From NCBI GenBank assembly GCA_007693785.1, contig RECY01000021.1:124001-188000 (forward strand): DNA of 64,000 nt, in the 5' to 3' direction. The position numbers and the translations under genes are program-made. This document shows positions 27,001 to 27,765 of this stretch, piece by piece. Each line of letters opens with the position of its first letter. The stretch's first letter is position 1. The notes below the pieces were generated by a model that saw only the letters and a list, made by a program, of their open reading frames with translations, had not been told where the DNA came from and made no database searches. This DNA is from Phycisphaerales bacterium (GTDB taxonomy: Bacteria; Planctomycetota; Phycisphaerae; Phycisphaerales; UBA1924).

Positions 27001-27765
27001 CGAGCCGTACTTGAACAGGCGCGCCTCGCGGACCCACAGGTCCATGATCCCGCCCTCGTTGACCAGGTCGTCATCGATGCTCTGGATGAAGCAGGCGTGC
27101 GGCTGGGGGTGCGAGTACGCGTCGTTCGCCAGTTTTGCTTCGCCGGTCGCGGGGTCGCAGACCCAGTGCCCCTGGGCCGGGCCGGTGATGCCGTACGCCC
27201 AGTGCAGCCCGGTGTTGAACCACTGGGGGCTGTTGGGCGCGCACATCTGGTGGACCATCATGTACGCGATCTCGTCGTAGAACGCCTCGGCGTCCGCCGG
27301 CGTGTCGAAGTACCCGTGCTCACGCCCCCAGTGCGTCCAGCAACCCGCGAGGCGGTGGATCACCTGGCGGGCCGACCGCTCCGGCCCGAAGACGACCGAG
27401 CCGTCCTCGTCGGTCAGCACGCCCGCCGGCACACCCTCCCCATCTCTCCCACCCCTTGGTGGGACGGGCGTCCCGCCCGTCGCTTCCCCCTTCTTCCCGC
27501 TCTTGCCCGCCTTCGCAGACGCCGCCGCCCAACCCTCCTTGAGGATCGCGTACGCCTCGCGCATCTGCGGCACGCCGGCCTTGCGGAAGTACTTGCTCAC
27601 CATGATGTCCGTCGCGAGCTGGCTCCAGGTCGAGGGCACCTCGGCGTCCGGCATCTCGAACACGATCGAGCCGTCCGGGTTGCTGATCTTCGACGCCCGA
27701 GTCGTCCATTCAACGCTGCTGAACGGATCGCTTCCTGCTGTGGTGAACTTCCGTGTGATCTTCAT
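24076..27765 (-). CDS. nrdJ: Adenosylcobalamin-dependent ribonucleotide reductase (class II)
   Basis: This 1229 aa enzyme reduces ribonucleotides to deoxyribonucleotides using a B12-derived radical, independent of oxygen. Diagnostic segments are [17 protein letters not shown] near residue 180, [13 protein letters not shown], the [11 protein letters not shown] loop, [20 protein letters not shown] with the catalytic Cys of the NPCSE motif, and [18 protein letters not shown]. A C-terminal TSCPD-type region ([18 protein letters not shown]) and a zinc ribbon (CDVCG...[14 protein letters not shown]) close it, as in the long NrdJ group. At residues 95-110 an insert [14 protein letters not shown] is encoded by a family A palindrome. 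The protein otherwise has the expected length. dcd lies just upstream on the same strand, separated by a DUF4282 gene, linking the region to dNTP supply. Confidence 0.95.
   Translation of the reverse strand: [1229 protein letters not shown]
27458..27483. repeat. Family A palindrome inserted in frame within nrdJ
   Basis: ACGGGCG, TC, CCGCCCGT forms the same hairpin core as at 14958 and 55996. On the coding strand it reads as the residues ATGGTPVPP, in a region before the conserved catalytic core that is Lys/Gly-rich and variable. Confidence 0.75.

Follow-up and report, generated by a model that had tools for sequence, protein, structure and literature searches.

A REP-type palindrome in frame within nrdJ of a Phycisphaerales bacterium and its probable link to RAYTs embedded in housekeeping genes

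A palindrome that lies between genes at two places in the window (the whole 64,000-nt stretch of Phycisphaerales DNA that was analysed) also occurs inside nrdJ, where it is translated as part of the protein. This raises the question of what kind of element it is and how it came to lie in frame in an essential gene.

The nrdJ insert and its repeat family

The nrdJ product scores above the cut-offs of two NCBIfam models (TIGR02504, 552.8 bits; NF005122, 1231.6 bits) and, at 1502.8 bits, under the cut-off of a third (NF005736, cut-off 1737). Between a conserved N-terminal block (residues 1–66) and a conserved block starting at about residue 127, the protein has a linker of 62 aa, which contains the palindrome (Table 1). 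The first-pass annotation had reported that the core found at 14958 and 55996 recurs here, is translated as ATGGTPVPP near residue 100 and leaves the frame preserved, and these points were confirmed: the 17-nt core is present, the peptide occupies residues 95–103 of the 1229-aa frame, and a rough codon-usage model trained on the window gives coding log-odds of 33 and 35 on either side of the insert, in the same frame and without a stop. The insert borders were placed by eye from protein comparison, starting from a difference of 22 aa. In an AlphaFold2 run on residues 1–320 (57 sequences), residues 94–108 fall below 50 and are predicted to be disordered, with block means of 89–97 at residues 1–70 and 91–96 at residues 121–170; the model is partial, given that the fragment was cut and residues 224–309, where the cut lies, are mostly below 50. 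Two class II enzymes of solved structure, 7b9p and 7b9q, align with residues 1–68 and again from 125 onward, but with none of the stretch between.

Table 1. Coordinates of nrdJ, its insert and the related palindromes in the window
Feature	Position	Strand	Basis
nrdJ, adenosylcobalamin-dependent (class II) ribonucleotide reductase, 1229 aa	24076–27765	minus	translation, NCBIfam
In-frame 66-nt insert in nrdJ, residues 87–108	27442–27507	minus	comparison with the 40-aa linker of six g23 relatives
19-nt palindrome of the nrdJ REP-A2 copy, GACGGGCGGGACGCCCGTC	27463–27481	minus	sequence, hairpin
17-nt core of the nrdJ copy, ACGGGCGGGACGCCCGT	27464–27480	minus	
GTGG foot, one side only, adjoining the nrdJ palindrome	27459–27462	plus	sequence
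REP-A1 copy between genes	14958–14981	plus	17-nt core ACGGGCGGGACGCCCGT at 14960–14976
REP-A1 copy between genes	55996–56019	plus	17-nt core ACGGGCGGGACGCCCGT at 55998–56014

The 13-nt core of this family, REP-A, occurs at 48 sites in the 3.06-Mb genome, and the 17-nt palindrome pattern with any loop at 39 sites, with no site for the reversed control in either search; the copies are thus interspersed, as in a REP family. Two subtypes can be told apart among them by the outer arm pair, the nrdJ copy being A2 (outer pair G-C, GTCCCAC side) and the copies at 14958 and 55996 A1 (outer pair C-G, GTGCCAC side). Thirteen further strict A2 copies were used to build a profile, by which the left flank in nrdJ ranks among the best 0.06% of window positions and the right flank among the best 0.11%; the repeat therefore seems to extend beyond its palindrome. 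Such flanks are not common to all copies, as 2 of the 13 score below 0 on each side. The hairpin alone is only moderately unusual against shuffles of its own linker (p ~0.017), and the case therefore rests on interspersion. The same shuffle test, applied to the linkers of other genomes as well, gave p ≤0.02 in 4 of 20 linkers of at least 31 aa and in 2 of 102 shorter ones, and hairpin-only statistics were rejected as too weak to base a claim on.

The anatomy is also of REP type, with a tetranucleotide foot directly adjoining the palindrome on one side and an asymmetric 3-nt loop, and the same arrangement is seen in other copies; inverted pairs and RAYTs (REP-associated tyrosine transposases) are found in relatives. 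The GTGG foot recurs in the REP-A copies of relatives and beside many of the embedded RAYTs described below. With this foot the REP-A core is free of stop codons in all six frames, while a GTAG foot contains TAG.

A codon scan of the 48 core sites placed three copies inside genes (nrdJ, valS and a mqnC-like gene), the others being intergenic or ambiguous by this rough scan, so that the proteome does contain further in-frame copies. The valS product is above its NCBIfam cut-offs; the mqnC-like product reaches 383 of 428 bits, below the MqnC cut-off, and is above that of the CofH family. All three palindromes are read in one codon phase (TGGTPVPP, or GGTGVPPV from the other strand). The MqnC stretch that holds the palindrome is 75 aa long here and 42–90 aa in 29 relatives, and this linker is therefore variable too; in two of the relatives (G020 and G008, loci L388 and L393) the same variable stretch carries ATERRSDE-type repeat peptides. 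Three other candidates were set aside: one (L032) is coding by the codon scan but lies upstream of the probable start of a gene that we take to be GspF-like, and two (L017 and L030), although scored as coding, were left out of the count because they do not have the family flanks.

The nrdJ linker in other genomes

NrdJ was found in 207 of the 221 genomes of the order (E 1e-40). Its linker was parsed in 122 of 129 NrdJ loci, excluding the seven that were unparsed, and varies from 8 to 72 aa across 122 genomes. In each of the six genomes of genus g23 that were read, the linker is 40 aa long and lacks the palindrome, and the relative with the best NrdJ score (G016) has one of 26 aa. The alignment with relatives thus finds the insert absent from their NrdJ, and an insert conserved in distant NrdJ proteins that lack the palindrome, which would point to an ordinary loop, was looked for in these linkers and not seen. 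In 80 named NrdJ loci from many phyla, inspected by eye (one without upstream DNA and one with part of it only), the linker is mostly of about 20 aa or of another form. A REP-pair-like insert, recognized from the peptide alone (TGLQPV...TGCKPVPP), is present in Phycisphaerales SW_45 (L280, JAGVLZ010000052.1).

Nine of the 122 linkers measure at least 45 aa, and eight of these read as holding palindrome or repeat material. Besides the one studied here, they include an inverted REP-A pair (G024), an inverted pair of another REP (G135), a second repeat, REP-B, with peptides of the SRDREGA or PLPHGRGS type (G047, G118, G172 and G068), and two palindromes in G008. Repeats were also detected in shorter linkers, namely a REP-A pair in G039, REP-B in G043 and a CTCTCCC palindrome in G059. 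Together with G047, these three genomes belong to a single genus (g40), a further member of which (G055) has an 8-aa linker without repeat. The ninth of the linkers of at least 45 aa, in G033, is unassigned; it and the long linker of G117 contain no recognized repeat, and linkers of 40 aa exist without palindromes. Genome-wide counts support these assignments unevenly. REP-A was found at 10 sites in G024 and 5 in G039 (controls 0), and REP-B at 25 sites in G047 (control 1), at 3 in G118 (control 0; one of them in nrdJ) and at 9 in G068 (control 0), none of the nine being at its nrdJ. In G043 the REP-B count does not exceed background (2 sites, control 3), the single REP-B site in G172 is the nrdJ copy itself, and the G059 palindrome has one further copy only, which is imperfect. 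Given these counts, there is good support for the recurrence of repeats in the nrdJ linker in the case of REP-A and of G047, and for G043 and G172 the argument is one of likeness.

Elsewhere in NrdJ, the match of two genomes is interrupted at residues 458–462 by a gap of ~1.1 kb in one open frame (G043, C37:66210–67300; G009, C60:44691–45778), which suggests an intein.

RAYTs in frame within housekeeping genes of relatives

RAYT hits were obtained in 133 of the 221 genomes of the order, including 12 of the 16 genomes with at least three REP-A sites, and the linkage between REP-A sites and RAYTs is not tight across genomes. In the genome studied here there is one RAYT hit (L045). Palindromes of another family flank it, it lies outside the embedded clade in the tree described below, and it does not match the profile of embedded RAYTs at 1e-25; L045 was therefore rejected as the mobilizer of REP-A, and the RAYT search of this genome found no cognate transposase for the family. 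An association of REP and RAYT is thus seen in relatives and not in this genome. A second palindrome family of the window resembles the L045 flanks (21686–21829, 22748–22904, 35974–36040, 42931–43098 and 46896–47058).

Searching for valS, which was found in 39 of 41 genomes, and comparing its matches with those of RAYTs revealed RAYTs lying inside the valS frame. We then fetched 40 RAYT loci in a non-random manner: 20 for a long open frame, 13 for the shape of the match or a frame of middle length, and 7 to serve as references that are likely to be stand-alone. At 28 of these 40 loci (L421, L422, L425, L429, L436 and L442 among them) the RAYT is in frame in a host gene: valS in 13, rdgB in 8, leuS in 6 and miaA in 1. 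Host and transposase models (Pfam or NCBIfam) occur in one frame in all 18 frames scanned, with the transposase model below its curated cut-off in six (L418, L427, L434, L441, L442 and L447), and the remaining 10 hosts, all valS, were identified by shared ValRS motifs. One rdgB locus (L443, from G016) ends at a contig border, so that the second half of the host is outside the sequence. Two more embedded RAYTs of this kind are present in valS of G024 and G039.

The HUH motif is present in all 28 embedded copies, and the tyrosine motif is YxxxNP in 25 and YxxxNA in 3 (20 were aligned), and by this combination of HUH motif and putative catalytic tyrosine they are RAYTs. Related palindromes, recognized by eye, lie on both sides of 21 of the 28, mostly with GTGG, GTAG or GTAC feet; the other seven lack palindromes on both sides at the threshold used. 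Codon phases other than that of nrdJ occur beside embedded RAYTs (RRDACAT, GRDAR), and an argument from frame choice was dropped for this reason. Given that the family tables list no splicing domain for the 18 scanned frames, the insert presumably stays in the protein, and host and transposase would then be expressed as a single polypeptide.

In a midpoint-rooted tree of 66 RAYTs, drawn from a non-random sample and given without support values, the 28 embedded copies fall together with 3 from short frames, and the other 35 lie apart; 'stand-alone' in this tree is a label based on frame length, and four of 30 loci were unread and omitted. Seven pairs of valS-embedded RAYTs (at least 62% identity) have pN of 0.19–0.24, pS of 0.44–0.78 and, for the six with a finite value, dN/dS of 0.12–0.43. 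Despite dS being near saturation, these values are in keeping with purifying selection.

A profile of 20 embedded RAYTs matched 44 of 392 genomes of the phylum at E 1e-25. Outside the order, eight of the nine long-frame matches that came with a locus and were tested (including L473, L476, L480, L482, L485 and L486) have Y1_Tnp in one frame with other domains, and the ninth, L461, showed no domains. The partners are alanyl-tRNA synthetase, an FAD/FMN oxidoreductase, DUF1156 (two cases), Eco57I-type methylases (three cases) and a DEAD helicase, with host domains on both sides of Y1_Tnp only for alanyl-tRNA synthetase and the oxidoreductase.

A second RAYT type occurs in frame in the same valS linker of four genomes (G002, G047, G043 and G044; L377, L380, L381 and L383) and was omitted from the tree. 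It carries NHVH or a similar motif and a YV..EQ-like one, and resembles class 3 as described in the available part of PMC6006769. REP-B type peptides lie beside it in G002, G044 and G047.

For this genome and six relatives, each nrdJ linker was compared with the genome's own valS locus. Exact stretches of 28 and 37 nt in G024 correspond to both ends of the valS RAYT unit, and stretches of 31 and 33 nt in G135 to its right end in either orientation, with a further 34 nt in common with another copy in the valS locus; G047 has 29 nt exact (REP-B) and G039 26 nt, on one side. The REP of the nrdJ insert is thus common, at the level of sequence, to the valS RAYT unit of the same genome in four of the six relatives. 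In the other two, G172 and G043, only 19 and 14 nt are in common. The nrdJ linker of this genome (G000) has an exact stretch of 24 nt in its valS locus, identical to the copy there. REP-A itself flanks the embedded RAYT in G051, G227, G067 and G024, and in G067 the 23 nt that make up the core and foot side of the window's nrdJ copy recur exactly in valS, ~50 nt past its RAYT.

Origin of the insert and relation to known elements

The first-pass annotation had likened the insert to Rickettsia palindromic elements. The analogy stands insofar as both are palindromic repeats that encode peptides in frame in unrelated protein genes (PMC10969869, available in part), here nrdJ, valS and the mqnC-like gene, and the nrdJ insert is absent from relatives. 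It does not stand in the strict sense, since those elements measure ~150 bp against 66 nt here, come from other bacteria and were compared by description rather than by sequence, and the anatomy is that of REPs. The nrdJ insert fits best among the REPs with a GT[AG]G foot. With GTAG and GT[AG]G REPs and their RAYTs it has in common the palindrome, the one-sided tetranucleotide foot, inverted pairs, interspersion, and the HUH motif and tyrosine of the transposase (PMC3733652 and PMC6006769, both available in part); the differences are nrdJ as host and RAYTs that themselves lie in frame inside essential genes. The inverted REP pairs in nrdJ of G024, G039 and G135 are like REPINs (PMC3116915), whereas the window's nrdJ has a single REP, without an inverted partner and spacer, and the copies here are inside coding sequence. 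According to the available text of PMC3733652, intragenic in-frame REPs are known, many of them in genes for DNA synthesis or repair and, in some species, tRNA synthetases; REP families occur in Planctomycetes, and recB genes are struck at roughly one site. Among the best-ranked matches in the open-access literature we found no description of an aminoacyl-tRNA synthetase gene, or of any other essential gene, with a RAYT in frame. What appears to be new is therefore the RAYT lineage inside essential genes, in-frame REPs being already known.

We consider it probable that the nrdJ insert is a solo REP placed by a RAYT-type HUH/Y1 transposase acting in trans, with a mobilizer from the embedded RAYT lineage, and that it is a neutral translated passenger. 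A RAYT is predicted to recognize the REP hairpin and foot in single-stranded DNA, after which a REP, a REP pair or a whole RAYT unit would be inserted elsewhere; within genes, only in-frame, stop-free insertions at permissive linkers would survive. A solo REP (GTGG foot and palindrome with a 3-nt loop, ~66 nt with flanks) would have entered nrdJ in this way, and it may have survived because it is in frame, lies in a disordered N-terminal linker and has a core that is stop-free in six frames. ATGGTPVPP would then be translated as part of NrdJ, most likely as a neutral passenger without cost. The mobilizer most likely belongs to the RAYT lineage whose members in relatives are in frame in valS, leuS, rdgB and miaA, usually between inverted palindromes with feet, and the solo REPs and inverted pairs in nrdJ would be non-autonomous derivatives of such RAYT units, which we infer to be able to transpose.

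Recombination or gene conversion between repeats could also have carried a REP into nrdJ without any transposase, in line with the failure to find a cognate RAYT in this genome and with its own valS, which has a solo REP only, at the linker where relatives have a RAYT. We regard this as improbable, given that it would require prior homology at nrdJ and that inverted pairs and whole RAYT units sit at single sites in relatives. Selection of the insert for a function, either as an RNA hairpin slowing translation at a domain border or as a useful peptide, might explain why palindromes recur at the nrdJ linker in several lineages and why a single codon phase is used for the three copies within genes of this genome; it is somewhat less probable still, as such repeats are missing from most of the 122 linkers, the sequence is not the same from family to family and embedded RAYTs have other phases beside them as well. 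A third alternative is that a hypervariable linker has simply changed in length and that the palindrome is a coincidence of GC-rich Gly/Pro codons. This would suit the spread of linker lengths and the modest hairpin statistic, but it is the least probable of the three given the 39 palindrome sites against none in the control, the flank match to the A2 profile and the 24 nt identical to the genome's own valS copy.

Beyond the placement of a solo REP in nrdJ by a RAYT, we lean, on balance and with much less assurance, towards a broader interpretation. A lineage of REP transposases in Planctomycetes may be at home inside essential genes, with a RAYT and inverted REP ends lying in the frame of valS, leuS, rdgB and miaA (elsewhere in the phylum, other families would share a frame with alaS, DNA methylases or a helicase), the RAYT being translated as an unspliced domain of the host enzyme and its catalytic residues kept under purifying selection; it would move between such genes and seed stop-free REPs into linkers such as that of NrdJ. 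This niche would be intein-like without splicing. Inteins with homing endonucleases encode a DNA-cutting enzyme in frame in essential genes, as would the embedded RAYTs; the difference is the splicing domain, of which the tables of the 18 scanned RAYT frames list none.

The usual description of RAYTs is of domesticated genes that stand alone and whose benefit is unknown. If the lineage is what it appears to be, simple disruption could not remove a RAYT that lies in frame in an essential enzyme, and the RAYT would share the expression of its host; this suggests one route by which transposases of this type endure. The embedded copies would also serve as a natural experiment, showing which essential-enzyme linkers can accommodate an insertion. 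Fusions of RAYT and host may be thrown out as annotation errors, and PMC6006769, which classifies RAYTs and gives GT[AG]G feet, states in its available part that unexpectedly long proteins were discarded.

Two other repetitive regions were noted in the window. A long frame on the minus strand (812–3121) is made of short GC-rich direct repeats and probably encodes a Gly-rich repeat protein. At 53735–56019, also on the minus strand, two adjacent frames are 77–87% identical over several stretches and represent a tandem duplication.
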